Of a stretch of DNA of 42,156 nucleotides, positions 2,965 to 29,448 are shown one piece after another. How positions within the stretch are numbered: position 1 is the first letter of the stretch; each line of letters opens with the position of its first letter. The position numbers and the translations under genes were made by a program. The stretch spans positions 1-42,156 of the forward strand of contig JAKPYU010000768.1 of the NCBI GenBank assembly GCA_029568995.1, given 5' to 3'. The notes beneath the pieces were generated by a model, which saw only the letters and a list, made by a program, of their open reading frames with translations, was not told the origin of the DNA and searched no databases. Source of the DNA: Candidatus Omnitrophota bacterium. GTDB lineage: Bacteria; Hinthialibacterota; Hinthialibacteria; Hinthialibacterales; JAKPRU01.

Positions 2965-3546
2965 TCACTCCCCGGTTCTGATGCCGTAATGCTCTTTGGC
3001 CCGGTTGGTGATGGAGACAATGAATTCGCTCTTGCCCCTGGTGTAGGCCACGCGATCATTGGGGTGTGCGGTTGCCAGGTGAATCTTGAGGTCCTGGTAT
3101 TCCCGTGCGACCTGGGGGAATTCAACCAGGTAATCCCGAAACAGCAGACGGTCCCAGTGCTCGAAATGGCGTTCCACCATGTGGATGTGGTGGGTGCGAG
3201 TCCCGTTTTCGTCGCGCTTGATGAACCAGGCATAGAACGGCGGGCCGTCGAACAGGCTGGGACGCCAGAAATAGTCGTATCCCTGGGATTCCAGGATCGG
3301 CACGATTCGGGACCGGGTCGCGTCGAGATCGGTCACCTCAACCAGGATGTCAATAACAGGTTTCGCGGCCAGCCCCGGCACCGCAGTACTGCCGAAATGC
3401 TCGATGCGCGTGATGAGATCGTTTGGAAGGCAGGCCAGAAGGTGTCCCTTTTCCAGGCGAAACAGTTCGGGCCATTGCGGATCGTAGGGCACGACCGCAA
3501 CGTCTTCCGCAACAACTCGTTGGATTTTCTCTTCCAGGGATTCCAT
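2965..3546 (-). CDS. GrpB-family protein (UPF0157, nucleotidyltransferase-like)
   Basis: This 193-residue protein shows the GrpB signatures: VVPYDPQWPELFRLEKG at about 18-34, IEHFGSTAVPGLAAKPVIDI at about 48-67, and the C-terminal part with FRDYLVEFPQVAREYQDLK. The fold belongs to the nucleotidyltransferase superfamily. The biological role of most members is unknown, although some are fused to CoaE. The ATG at 3546 has no clear Shine-Dalgarno, and the upstream sequence is an AATT-heptamer repeat. No functional link to its neighbours is visible. Confidence 0.9.
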   Translation of the reverse strand: MESLEEKIQRVVAEDVAVVPYDPQWPELFRLEKGHLLACLPNDLITRIEHFGSTAVPGLAAKPVIDILVEVTDLDATRSRIVPILESQGYDYFWRPSLFDGPPFYAWFIKRDENGTRTHHIHMVERHFEHWDRLLFRDYLVEFPQVAREYQDLKIHLATAHPNDRVAYTRGKSEFIVSITNRAKEHYGIRTGE

Positions 3547-3556
3547 GGCAACTATG

Positions 3557-3574
3557 AATTATGAATTGCGAATT
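3557..3574. repeat. AATT-heptamer repeat
   Basis: Short tandem heptamers AATTATG, AATTGCG, AATT ending in AATTGAAGA. The same arrangement, with the same AATTGAAGA end, occurs at 30577-30608 next to another gene start. It lies immediately upstream of the minus-strand GrpB gene, so it may form part of that gene's leader. Confidence 0.5.
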
Positions 3575-3613
3575 GAAGACAAAAAAGAGTTGGCCCGCAG
3601 ACCCCCACCCCAC

Positions 3614-3662
3614 CCCTCCCCGTAAACGGGGAGGGAGAAAAATTCCCCCCGTTTACGGGGGG
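3614..3662. repeat. Two adjacent perfect hairpins between URO-D and GrpB genes
   Basis: The first hairpin is CCCTCCCCGT (3614-3623), loop AA, ACGGGGAGGG (3626-3635). The second is CCCCCCGT (3645-3652), loop TT, ACGGGGGG (3655-3662). The two cores are reverse complements of each other (CCGTAAACGG and CCGTTTACGG). They lie just past the stop codon of the URO-D-like gene (3677) and upstream of nothing obvious, so transcription termination or mRNA stabilisation is plausible. Confidence 0.65.
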
Positions 3663-3676
3663 ATCAAGGGGGGGAA

Positions 3677-4819
3677 TCAGTCCCGGCCATGTTTACGGAA
3701 GTAATGGAATCCCTCTAACAGTGCCTCGATATTCTCCCAGGGAACACCGGGGGCAATACTACTCGACGCGCCCAGGAAAAGGCCGGTTTTCGGGCCGTAG
3801 TCAACAAGCCACTGCATTTCCCGCCGCACATCATCCGGACTTCCGTATGGCAGAGTTCGAGTAACAGACACTCCCGCGATGATAATCAATGGTTCTCCGT
3901 CGGACGTAGTCATCCGGCAGATTTTCTCGTAATCCATCCCGTCCTCATACTGAAATCCCTGGAACCCGTGGAGTCCGGTTTCCAGAAGTCTCGGAACCAT
4001 AAGCGACAGATTTCCATCGCAGTGCCAGATCATCCGTATATCGGTTTCGAGTACCGGCTTAAGCGACCGCGCAAAATGCGGAAACCAGATCCGATCCAGC
4101 GAACGAATATCGACAAGCGTTCCGCGCGAGTCGGCCATATCGTGATCCAGCCGAATCAATGGCGGCAGCGATCCCTCATGGCATGAACGTACAAAGGCCC
4201 GATTGTGCAACATCGCCAGGTCCGCCTGGAGCGAGAAATCTTTCTCCATCATATCGGGGTACAGGGCGTATGCCATGAAATAGTTTTCATACCCGTATTG
4301 GCCGTAGCGGAGAATCGGGAACCGAACATGCTCGTAAGGGACTTTCAACATATCCGGTCCCAGGATGTCCTGGACGGACTTTTCGTGCCGGACAATTCGT
4401 GCAACGGATTCCGTTTCCTTAAAATATCTGATCTCATCGCGCATTCGGGGGAACTCGATCCGTTCCAGGTGCTCGATAACGGATTCGGGAGAGTCGATTC
4501 GGCGGCCGTCCCGCACAACCGTCTCCGCCGCGGTCGTCGCGCCGCGCGGCGTGTCGCCTTCAAAGCCCGAAGGCCCCATGGTGAGCGGGTTTTCGGGAAT
4601 CCACTGGTCCACCATGCAGCATCCGCTGTGGATCAGCATTTGTCGATACGTTGCAGTCGGCTCGCGCCGGTAAGTCCCCTCCGGCTTTCCCGCAATTCGG
4701 TCGATGATGCGCCATTCCATCGGATTGATCAGCCAGATCGGGATTCCCTTCACAGGCTTCTGCATCAGCGTCTCGAGCGCCAGTTGAGACCAGTGATTCA
4801 GTGTTGCAGGCTCTGCCAT
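3677..4819 (-). CDS. Uroporphyrinogen-decarboxylase (URO-D) family protein
   Basis: This 380-residue protein fits the URO-D/MtaA/CmuA superfamily of TIM-barrel proteins. Supporting segments are IWHCDGNLSLMVPRLLETG (about 263-281), HGFQGFQYEDGMDYEKI, the glycine-rich AGVSVTRTLPYGSPDDVRREM, and the C-terminal PGVPWENIEALLEGFHYF. The N-terminus lacks the RQAGR-type motif of true heme-pathway HemE. It therefore more likely belongs to the catabolic or methyltransferase-like branch that is abundant in PVC and candidate-phylum genomes. The ATG at 4819 has a GAGAAG ribosome site. No corrinoid protein or heme gene is adjacent, so the substrate is unknown. Confidence 0.82.
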   Translation of the reverse strand: MAEPATLNHWSQLALETLMQKPVKGIPIWLINPMEWRIIDRIAGKPEGTYRREPTATYRQMLIHSGCCMVDQWIPENPLTMGPSGFEGDTPRGATTAAETVVRDGRRIDSPESVIEHLERIEFPRMRDEIRYFKETESVARIVRHEKSVQDILGPDMLKVPYEHVRFPILRYGQYGYENYFMAYALYPDMMEKDFSLQADLAMLHNRAFVRSCHEGSLPPLIRLDHDMADSRGTLVDIRSLDRIWFPHFARSLKPVLETDIRMIWHCDGNLSLMVPRLLETGLHGFQGFQYEDGMDYEKICRMTTSDGEPLIIIAGVSVTRTLPYGSPDDVRREMQWLVDYGPKTGLFLGASSSIAPGVPWENIEALLEGFHYFRKHGRD

Positions 4820-5056
4820 TTCTTCTCACGACATGCAATTTCTCCGTCTGCTCAAGACCAAATCGTACGCGGAAACCGTCGTTCAATCCAGAACAGACAG
4901 GTTCTTGCAACGCGCCGATGAGAAGGATATTGCAGAAAGATTCCTGCAAAAAGACCCCATTGACAAATCATCGGCACGGGTGGAAGATCCTTGTAGAGTG
5001 ACAGGCGGACTGCGTTGCGGAGTATTCAGCCCGGACATTGTGCGGAGTCATTCAGC

Positions 5057-24543: not shown

Positions 24544-24776
24544 CGATCTGCCTTTCTCTTGTGACCTGACATTCGCCCCCGATCATAATTCTCTTTCTTC
24601 ATCACGGCAATCCCTAAATCCCGCGAATTATGGTTCAGACTTCCCGCTATCCGCGTTCTCTGTTTCCCAATTCGTAATTTCCTCCTCTGGCCGCCGTGGA
24701 CGGAACCACCAAACCGGAGGATGATCCCGAGTGGAATCGCCTTGGGAAGGCGCATGAAAAGAAGGAGAAACAACTC

Positions 24777-26228
24777 ATGTGTACGCATTGCACTCGTCGG
24801 CAGTTCCTCGAGGTAAGCGCAGCGAGCGGGATCGCGTTGGCAGCAGGTCACCTGGCCGCCGCGAACGAGGCATCGAGCTCCGCGTCCTCGCCCGGTTCGA
24901 AAGTCCGGATCTGCGCGATCATCGCCGGCAAGGCGGGCGAACGCAGTTGGGCCTTATCAGAAGCGGAGGTCACCGCGGCACGCGAGCGTCTGGCCGTGGC
25001 TGAGAAGAATCTCGGCAACGTGGAATTCATCATTGGCCAGGCGAGCAATGCGGATGAAACCGCGCAGTTGCTGGCGCAATCCGGCCCGGATGCCCCTGTG
25101 CTGGCAATCAGCACGGATATCTTCGGTCTCAGTCACGGCGTCATGCCCACAGTCTTCAAAGAAGGCCGACCCGCAGCGGTCTTTCACATACCCGTGGTTG
25201 GCGGGCACGACTGGTGCCTGGTGAATCCATGGCGCGCAGAGGGGAACCGGGTCACCCTTTTCGACAGCAGCGACTACAACGATCTGGAGCGGGCGGCGGC
25301 GTTGCTTCGGGTAATCCCGCTCTTGAAACAGAGCCGCGTGCTTGTCTCGCCCCCATTCAAAGGCACACCGGCCTCCTACGCGCCGGACCTGGTGAGAGAA
25401 CGGCTCGGCGTGGAACTGGTGCAGCTCGCCGAAGAACGATACGACCAGGTCATGGCGGGTGTGGACGAGGCCGTGGCGGAAGAGATAGCGGAACAGTGGA
25501 TCAAAGAGGCCGACCGCGTCGTTGAGCCGACACGGGAGGATGTTGTCAAGGCGGCACGGGCGAGTCTGACCCTGGACCAGCTCATCGCTGAGAACCGCGC
25601 TCACGGGTTCTGCGTCGGGACCTGCATGAGATGGCTGCCGAGAGGATTCCCCTGCCTGGGATTCTCGCGCCTGAACGACCGGGGAATCCCCGCGGCTTGC
25701 GATGGGGACATGGACTGCCTGCTGACCATGTTGATTATGCAATACGCGCTGAACCGAGCCGGGTTCCTGGGCAACGCAGCGGGCGTGGATACCGCGAAGA
25801 ACGCCTTTCATCTCTCCCACTGCTCGGCCCCGCTGAGAATGGAGGGTCCCGAAAGCGCGAGATCGCCCTACCTGCTTCGTCGGCACGCGGAGGTCCGTGG
25901 CGGAGCCGTTACCGAGGTCCATTATCGCGTCGGGCAGAAAGTTACATTCACCAAGATGATCCACCTCGACACTCTGCTGGTGTTCACCGGGAAAACTGTC
26001 GAGGTTCCCAAGGTCCCCAAAGGAACCGAGCGAGGCTGCCGGACGGAAATCGCCGCCGAGGTGAGGGACGCCGACAGGCTGTCGGAGAATTGGGGCGGTG
26101 GTGCGCTCGGCGCAAGCGCCAAGGACTACTATGCCTCATTGCATCGAGTAGCCTATTACGGTGACCACACCCGAAGCATCCGTCACCTGGCCCACCTGCT
26201 GGGATTGAAGGTTGTAGAGGAATGCTGA
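24777..26228 (+). CDS. Tat-exported L-fucose/L-arabinose isomerase-like protein, copy 4
   Basis: This 483-residue protein has the Tat leader CTRRQFLEVSAASGIALAAG. Body features are VRICAIIAGKAGERSW, APVLAISTDIFG, FPCLGFSRLNDRGIPAACDG followed by DMDCLLTMLIMQYAL, and LSHCSAPLRMEG then YRVGQKVTFTKMI, ending YYGDHTRSIRHLAHLLGL. The Asp/Glu and His positions match the pattern of the other three copies, but the chain is distinct from the close pair at 17953/19986. The ATG at 24777 is preceded by AAGGAG (24762-24767). A longer open frame from 24696 would bury the Tat signal. Base composition looks more GC-rich than in the copies at 17953 and 19986. Confidence 0.75.
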   Translation: MCTHCTRRQFLEVSAASGIALAAGHLAAANEASSSASSPGSKVRICAIIAGKAGERSWALSEAEVTAARERLAVAEKNLGNVEFIIGQASNADETAQLLAQSGPDAPVLAISTDIFGLSHGVMPTVFKEGRPAAVFHIPVVGGHDWCLVNPWRAEGNRVTLFDSSDYNDLERAAALLRVIPLLKQSRVLVSPPFKGTPASYAPDLVRERLGVELVQLAEERYDQVMAGVDEAVAEEIAEQWIKEADRVVEPTREDVVKAARASLTLDQLIAENRAHGFCVGTCMRWLPRGFPCLGFSRLNDRGIPAACDGDMDCLLTMLIMQYALNRAGFLGNAAGVDTAKNAFHLSHCSAPLRMEGPESARSPYLLRRHAEVRGGAVTEVHYRVGQKVTFTKMIHLDTLLVFTGKTVEVPKVPKGTERGCRTEIAAEVRDADRLSENWGGGALGASAKDYYASLHRVAYYGDHTRSIRHLAHLLGLKVVEEC

Positions 26229-26243
26229 TGTGAGCAAGAAATC

Positions 26244-26266
26244 CCTCCCCCCAAGATCGGGGGAGG
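26244..26266. repeat. CCTCCCCCC...GGGGGAGG hairpin
   Basis: CCTCCCCCC (26244-26252), loop AAGATC, GGGGGAGG (26259-26266). It is almost the same hairpin as 2816-2838, including the AAGATC centre. It is the first of three elements in the 406-nt gap after the isomerase-like gene and may act as its terminator. Confidence 0.6.
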
Positions 26267-26278
26267 CCCCAGCTGTGT

Positions 26279-26337
26279 AAGGTGGCCTTCAACCCCTCCG
26301 CCGGCTGGCCCACCAAGTCGTCTGATGATGAGATTTC
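26279..26337 (+). repeat. Dispersed repeat family A, copy 2
   Basis: AAGGTGGCCTTCAACCCC...CACCAAG followed by TCTGATGATGAGATTTC. It matches 29304-29367 along its length and the reverse complement of 46-85 in its first part. It ends exactly where a sulfatase-modifying-factor gene fragment begins, which suggests the repeat broke that gene. Confidence 0.65.
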
Positions 26338-26339
26338 GC

Positions 26340-26500
26340 AGCCGTCCAGTGAATCCCATTCCGCTTCGGTCGGCAGGCGGAATGTTCCCATGCGCCGTTT
26401 GTTGATCTCCAGTATGAACATCCGGCACTGGTTCCACGTGATCTACTCAACCGGATTATTCGGATTGCCGCTGAACTCGGGCGCCGGGGAGATTGACAGC
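26340..26500 (-). pseudogene. Fragment of a formylglycine-generating-enzyme (FGE/SUMF1) domain gene
   Basis: Read on the minus strand from about 26490 downward, one frame gives PEFSGNPNNPVE, a stop codon (TAG), then ITWNQCRMFILEINKRRMGT and FRLPTEAEW. This is the well-known FGE-sulfatase core: NPVE-x-V-S/T-W, then the Cys/helix segment, then G-T-F-RLPTEAEWE. The stop stands where many members have Gln (CAG to TAG). After the Trp codon (26356-26358) similarity ends and repeat sequence follows. Both ends of the domain are missing, so this is a relic. A very short expressed peptide from 26421 is possible but unlikely. No intact copy is present in the window. Confidence 0.75.
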
Positions 26501-26634
26501 CTGCAAGGGGGCCGGTAGGATGCTGATGTGGAGATTTTGGACCACCGCAACGGGTCTGCCCATCGGGCAATCCGCTTGGGTGGGGGATAGCAGATTCAGG
26601 GGGGAAATTCCCATGATAGGAAACCTTCAGCATC
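26501..26634. other. Intergenic remainder, no clear feature
   Basis: The rest of the gap between the isomerase-like gene and the first NHL protein gene. It shows no convincing frame on either strand. It may hold further decayed sequence from the FGE gene, but no family motif is recognisable. Confidence 0.4.
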
Positions 26635-27903
26635 TTGGGCGTGAGACCTCGCACTTTCCTCGCAATACTTTGTCTTCCAGTTTTCATGGTGGTGCATGCT
26701 GAATCGGAGACGCCGCTTCCTCGCGCCTCAATCCGGCCATCGCTCGTCCGGCTGCAGCCCGGCGCAACGCAGGCGTTCAAAATCATCCGCATGGCTGCGC
26801 CGCTTCGGCCTGCGACACTCATGGAAACCGTGACGTGGTCGGTGAACGGCATTCGCGGCGGGAACAAGACCTTCGGCACAATCGATGACCAGGGTGTGTA
26901 TCGCGCTCCGAACGAGGCGCCCTCCCCCCCCGAAATCCACATCATCGGCGAAGTGACCGGAGTCGCGAACCGAACACTGTTTGCCACGGTCATGATGGAA
27001 TCCGATCGGCCGCTTTACGAGATGACGGTCGAATTCTCCGAACCTCTCAAAGGCGCGAAATACTTCAACAATCCCCATTGTGTCACACTGGATATCGACG
27101 GCAATCTTTTGATTGCCGACTATGACGGCAGCCGTGTGCTGCGTTTCTCTCCCGAAGGAAAGTATCTCGGCGACCTGGGCAACGGCATCGGCGAAGAACC
27201 GGGCCAGGTCCACTTGCCCCGCGTCGTTCTAGTCGACAACAAGGGAGACATCTATGTCAGCGACTTGAAGCAATTCGGGCCGCGTGTCCAGGTGTTCAGC
27301 AACAAAGGGAAGTATTTGTATTCGTTCGCTGAAAAGGGAACAGGGTCCGGAGAGGTGTTGCGCGCCCACGGCATGGATTTCAACAGCCTCGATCAGCTGT
27401 TTCTCGTGGATGTGGATGCCATGCGTGTCAACGTCTACACGCACGACGGCTGTTTCCTGCGAACCTGGGGGCGGGATGGCCCGGACATCCAGGATTTCAA
27501 TGCGCCGCACGGCTTGGTCATCGATCCGAACGATGATGTCTTCGTGTCGAATTACTACGGCACAATCCAGAAGTTCACTCCTGAAGGTGAATTCCTGTAT
27601 CAAGTTACGAGGGCGGATCCGCCCGATGGCTCCGTGTATGTCCATTCGATTTGCGGCGACCGTTGGGGAAACCTGTATGCCATGGTCCGTGGGCAGCGGG
27701 GATTCGGCGGCGAGGTCGAGGTCAGCAAGGGAAAACTGGTGAGTCTTGAGAAGTATAACAACAACGGCGATTACATTGCGGGCATCACGCTGACCGTAAA
27801 GGCTCACGCGGAGAATTGGGCGCATGTGGATGACAAGGATAATCTCTACTTTATCTATCGGGGCGAGGATACCGCCGGATTCGAGATCTTCGCGCATCGC
27901 TGA
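26635..27903 (+). CDS. Secreted Ig-like plus NHL-repeat beta-propeller protein, copy 1
   Basis: This 422-residue protein carries a signal peptide, RTFLAILCLPVFMVVHAES. An Ig/Big2-like domain (about 30-130: SIRPSLVRLQPGATQAFKI, VTWSVNGIRGG) follows. Six NHL-type blades (about 140-422) then include HCVTLDIDGNLLIADYDGSR, VVLVDNKGDIYVSDL, HGLVIDPNDDVFVSNYYG and GDRWGNLYAMV. The start is a TTG at 26635 or a GTG at 26641; neither has a strong ribosome site. Three nt separate it from its paralogue, so they form an operon. NHL propellers usually bind proteins or carbohydrates. A scaffold or lyase-like role in the envelope is possible, and no catalytic residues are identified. Confidence 0.85.
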   Translation: MGVRPRTFLAILCLPVFMVVHAESETPLPRASIRPSLVRLQPGATQAFKIIRMAAPLRPATLMETVTWSVNGIRGGNKTFGTIDDQGVYRAPNEAPSPPEIHIIGEVTGVANRTLFATVMMESDRPLYEMTVEFSEPLKGAKYFNNPHCVTLDIDGNLLIADYDGSRVLRFSPEGKYLGDLGNGIGEEPGQVHLPRVVLVDNKGDIYVSDLKQFGPRVQVFSNKGKYLYSFAEKGTGSGEVLRAHGMDFNSLDQLFLVDVDAMRVNVYTHDGCFLRTWGRDGPDIQDFNAPHGLVIDPNDDVFVSNYYGTIQKFTPEGEFLYQVTRADPPDGSVYVHSICGDRWGNLYAMVRGQRGFGGEVEVSKGKLVSLEKYNNNGDYIAGITLTVKAHAENWAHVDDKDNLYFIYRGEDTAGFEIFAHR

Positions 27904-29303: not shown

Positions 29304-29367
29304 AAGTAAGGTGGGCTTCAATCCCGTCTGCGGGCTAACTCACCAATTCGTCTGATGATGAGATTTC
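29304..29367 (+). repeat. Dispersed repeat family A, copy 3
   Basis: AAGTAAGGTGGGCTTCAATC and on through CCCGTCTGCGGGCT, ending in GATGAGATTTC. It is the fullest copy of the family and continues into the inverted-repeat element that follows. Confidence 0.65.
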
Positions 29368-29448
29368 TCCCTTCGGTCGGAATGACAGGCGCATTGTCAT
29401 CATGAGAAGCCTCTTGTCATTCCGAACGAATGTGAGGAATCTCATCAT
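29355..29448. repeat. Inverted-repeat (MITE-like) element with about 34-bp arms
   Basis: The left arm 29355-29386 starts ATGATGAGATTT and ends GTCGGAATGACA. The right arm 29415-29448 starts TGTCATTCCGAAC and ends GAATCTCATCAT. The arms pair with a few mismatches around a 28-nt centre. It resembles the common 'TGTCATTCCGAGCGAAGCGAGGAATCT' intergenic repeat type. It lies between convergent genes. Confidence 0.65.

Follow-up and report, generated by a model that had tools for sequence, protein, structure and literature searches.

A probable truncated pseudogene fragment of an FGE-like gene beside a truncated dispersed repeat in a Candidatus Omnitrophota bacterium

Introduction

Among the described relatives of the sequence considered here are the true formylglycine-generating enzymes (FGE), represented by human SUMF1 and by solved bacterial structures such as 2q17. 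The human enzyme is strongly affected when Cys336 and Cys341 are mutated (PMC4505483). Among described repeats, the nearest counterparts of the elements next to our locus are the REP-like short palindromic interspersed repeats.

Here we analyse an intergenic stretch of the window, by which we mean the whole 42,156 nucleotides of contig JAKPYU010000768.1 (assembly GCA_029568995.1). A preliminary description of this DNA had recognised an FGE core with an in-frame TAG on the minus strand, and had taken it for the remains of a sulfatase-maturing gene cut by a repeat that was mobile or involved in the break. The FGE core and its stop codon are upheld below, whereas the sulfatase-maturing function and the role of the repeat are not. 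A literature search yielded nothing on such relics.

Results

On the minus strand, positions 26353-26481 translate as PEFSGNPNNPVE-stop-ITWNQCRMFILEINKRRMGTFRLPTEAEWD with a single in-frame TAG; the fragment peptide is FSGNPNNPVE-stop-ITWNQCRMFILEINKRRMGTFRLPTEAEWD (Table 1). A Pfam scan with X at the stop matched this fragment to PF03781 with E 2e-4 and 21.4 bits, which falls under the curated whole-domain cut-off of 23.3 bits because the piece is short relative to the 255-position domain. In a whole-genome search the best own-genome match of the peptide was an ORF without inner stops on contig C770 (53% identity, E 1.3e-12), so that an intact paralogue is present elsewhere in the genome; the other paralogues match with scores falling to weak. 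Peptide matches are contained in 10 of 17 genomes (lowest E 3.5e-14). Intact genes of the same order are 57-61% identical to the fragment (E down to 5.6e-14), and the very best match overall (3.5e-14) is itself a broken gene. A profile derived from the relatives scored the fragment frame at E 1.7e-18, and the translated search against the FGE family is significant by this lineage profile as well as by the peptide match. As the E-values of all three kinds of match lie far past chance, the FGE similarity is real, and sequence comparison assigns the 43-codon stretch to the FGE/SUMF1-like domain family (PF03781). The complete domain is not present, with only positions 96-138 of the 265-position profile covered.

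Table 1. Features at and around the FGE-like fragment (window coordinates)
Feature	Position	Strand	Remarks
Intact neighbour gene, 510 aa, no Pfam match	24696..26228	+	89% identical orthologue in same-genus genome
Hairpin module m3, CCTCCCCC...GGGGGAGG	26240..26266	+	more than 30 copies in genome
Composite dispersed repeat: hairpin module m2, linker and first 8 bases of palindromic module m1	26277..26337	+	
Filler between end of FGE similarity and truncated repeat	26338..26352	.	15 nt, no match found
FGE/SUMF1-like domain fragment	26353..26481	-	43 codons; aligns to positions 96-138 of the 265-position profile; interrupted by one in-frame stop
In-frame TAG within fragment (NPVE-stop-ITW)	26443..26445	-	minus-strand reading
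Intact neighbour gene, 422 aa, NHL repeat protein	26635..27903	+	start codon putative
More complete composite repeat copy (m2, linker and full m1), reference	29306..29443	+	

Both ends of the fragment are sharply cut, whether the TAG is counted or not. In a search for the missing N-terminal half, the 310 bases upstream gave profile scores within those of shuffled controls in all minus frames, and pieces of the three minus frames had no Pfam match; a weak upstream extension against L169 (an SK..T.A pattern) was dropped, as the profile gave it no support. At the other end, similarity to nearly all relatives ceases at the Trp codon or at the one after it (26353-26358), and nearly all matches between the DNA of the core and that of relatives terminate at base 26354, two bases past the Trp codon. 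The relatives remain conserved beyond this point, where EYACRAGT comes next, and the C-terminal half of the gene, sought past the repeat, is absent there. The missing upstream signal and the abrupt end of the downstream matches thus show the relic to be truncated at both ends. Apart from the TAG there is little decay in the 43 codons (RLPTEAEW is intact and no frameshift occurs), which points either to a recent loss or to the copying of a conserved piece. A reassignment of the stop codon was rejected, since TAG is the normal terminator of three of the 16 long window ORFs tested. The DNA of the stretch, searched in 16 other genomes, found FGE-core matches and hairpins only and no orthologous relic.

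The repeat had been placed directly after the conserved Trp. It is indeed present at 26277-26337, but 18 nt (26338-26355) separate it from the Trp codon, which ends at 26356; on the far side the FGE similarity reaches approximately position 26481. The copy is 85% identical to 29306-29367 of the reference copy, and its m1 remnant consists of 8 bases only (GAGATTTC, 26330-26337), whereas m1 copies elsewhere extend through the whole palindrome of about 64 bp (GAGATTTCTCCCTTCGGTCGAAATGACAGG...TGTCATTCCGAACGAATGTGAGGAATCTC). This dispersed module lies at 29360-29443 in the window and at more than 30 places in the genome and has no Rfam match; Rfam gave no match in the window at all. Across the genome, FGE-like genes and repeats do not generally occur together: the 16 FGE loci (51 kb) contain one repeat module, and of the 57 loci centred on repeats (153 kb) the relic locus alone contains FGE sequence. 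Two more intergenic repeat words, 96-97% identical and in the same order, are found in the window at 2703-2736/2905-2950 and 19593-19626/19661-19706. Hairpins of the m3 type are also numerous in same-genus genomes, several of them close to contig ends.

The 510-aa neighbour gene is kept in two same-genus genomes, in one with 89% identity over the whole protein; in the second, the contig contains no more than its final 69 residues. Behind the gene lies a similar hairpin region, in full in one of these genomes and partially in the other, and past this region nothing downstream matches in either, so that the upstream gene and m3 are what is shared. Since m3 stands behind this upstream gene in a same-genus genome too, it is ancestral at this place. 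In the deposited records the two same-genus genomes are labelled uncultivated 'Candidatus Omnitrophota', and relatives within the order carry either the 'Hydrogenedentota' or the 'Omnitrophota' name; the labels vary. A planctomycete-labelled chromosome (L155, CP070685.1, Phycisphaerales bin658) matches the final 46 residues encoded by the 510-aa gene with 98% identity, and for it the C-terminal end alone was reported.

FGE-like genes are abundant in the lineage, with 18 matches in the own genome and dozens in a sister family. The region of the catalytic Cys336/Cys341 is not included in the relic, and C-x4-C occurs in none of the 12 own-genome paralogues that are readable at the motif (our script could not read L009, L012, L014 and L015, which were left out). 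Because the FGE cysteine motif is absent where it can be read in the own genome, the PF03781 label of these genes is no ground for assuming sulfatase maturation, and the earlier designation as sulfatase-maturing is not supported; judged from sequence, 'FGE-like' is as far as the identity of the lost gene can be taken. The genome has 28 PF00884 sulfatase matches, none of them on the contig of the relic (C93). With this count, and with a downstream order that differs in both same-genus relatives, the suggestion that FGE or sulfatase genes formerly belonged to the region is unproven. On contig C726 an FGE-like domain without C-x4-C (3223-3849) ends a long membrane-protein-like ORF, and a sulfatase gene (4001-5017) comes directly after it.

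Discussion

The in-frame TAG together with the loss of both ends relative to intact homologues is characteristic of a pseudogene, and we consider it highly probable that the stretch is a truncated pseudogene fragment, left when a deletion or rearrangement in an intergenic region of fast turnover disrupted an FGE-like gene. The relic is real gene debris, a product of ordinary genome decay, and probably has no present function. An FGE-like (SUMF1-like) gene, one of many in the lineage, would have been broken by such an event, and what remains of it is 43 codons from the middle of the domain, now carrying a nonsense mutation. The joint between fragment and repeat presumably arose by a deletion or another illegitimate join in which most of m1 was lost as well; this fits better than an insertion because the locus shows neither a whole repeat nor the remaining half of the gene. 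Such decay of FGE-like genes is not unusual, as a gene of a related genus (L168, genome G008, contig C3, about 26525-26650) is likewise stop-broken, its in-frame TAG (RLNQMG-stop-GTFRLP) lying at another codon, and has lost its C-terminal half. That an FGE gene once stood at the place of the relic and was lost there, as previously proposed, is likely but not demonstrated, because gene order around the locus is not retained within the genus. No relative was seen to carry the gene intact at the corresponding place, and the original state is thus unseen.

The same poor conservation of gene order, together with the two sharp ends, would also suit an import of no more than this small scrap, whether through transposition, as filler during repair or by horizontal transfer, in which case the whole FGE gene was never here. 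An 11-bp direct repeat (ATGCTGATGTG at 26222 and 26520) could be taken in its favour, but its left copy overlaps the stop codon of the neighbour gene and the block between the copies contains m3, which is present after the same gene in a same-genus genome free of the insert. As it overlaps the stop codon and encloses an ancestral hairpin, we rejected it as a clean target-site duplication and regard the import as unlikely. Similarly unlikely is an insertion of the dispersed repeat as a mobile element after the conserved Trp codon, for which the genome-wide scatter of the repeat modules and their presence within 18 nt of the break could be quoted. The copy is cut on the side of the gene after 8 bases of m1 and followed by 15 nt of unrelated filler, and its far side carries m3, ancestral to the neighbour gene, instead of the other half of the gene. 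A full repeat flanked by both target halves is therefore not what the locus contains: the repeat is truncated and no FGE sequence lies on its far side. In view of this truncation and of the scarcity of common loci described above (one repeat module in the FGE loci; FGE sequence at no repeat-centred locus other than that of the relic), the claimed mobility of the repeat, or its part in the break, stays unproven.

Repeats are frequent sites of misassembly, and a joint adjoined by them in a draft of 807 contigs with 7% contamination raises the question of an artefact, with the TAG as an error or the joint as a chimera. We hold this to be very unlikely: both ends of the fragment are cut even if the TAG is discounted, and the repeat copy at the joint is unique in sequence (85% to the nearest copy), which makes a misjoin by repeat collapse improbable. 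There is still less to recommend the idea that FGE-like genes of the lineage are lost or reshuffled via recombination with dispersed palindromic repeats, aided by the 10-base word CTTCGGTCGG that an m1 variant has in common with the coding sequence of the conserved PTEAE motif. A 9-mer in common arose in 120 of 5000 shuffles, the joint between fragment and repeat is not located at the 10-mer and the other repeat loci are without FGE sequence; the shared word was rejected as an explanation. Finally, the frame that is open from an ATG at 26421 within the relic (ORF 25984-26421, minus strand) might be read as a new short gene for a 145-aa chimera, but no Pfam domain matches it and its later portion runs antisense to the conserved 510-aa gene, which leaves this reading with hardly any probability. 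The preferred interpretation as a truncated pseudogene fragment is mainly of value for annotation, where the stretch belongs among the pseudogene fragments and not among the genes.

In comparison with known systems, the repeats at the locus resemble REP-like sequences, which likewise are dispersed inverted-repeat modules and sometimes composite, and we claim no membership for them. To true FGE (human SUMF1 and the bacterial structures) the fragment has a weak sequence match (E about 0.005), and it differs from them in being without the catalytic Cys336/Cys341 region (PMC4505483), just as the readable paralogues are without C-x4-C. Its nearest likeness is to the PF03781 proteins of its own genome. 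Compared with their domain of about 255 positions, the relic is reduced to 43 codons with a nonsense codon and is without start, C-terminal core and a gene frame of its own; with those on contigs C770, C613 and C380 it shares the domain middle NPxxPVE..SW....F...N..G.GTFRLPTEAEWE, in which it is 50-55% identical.
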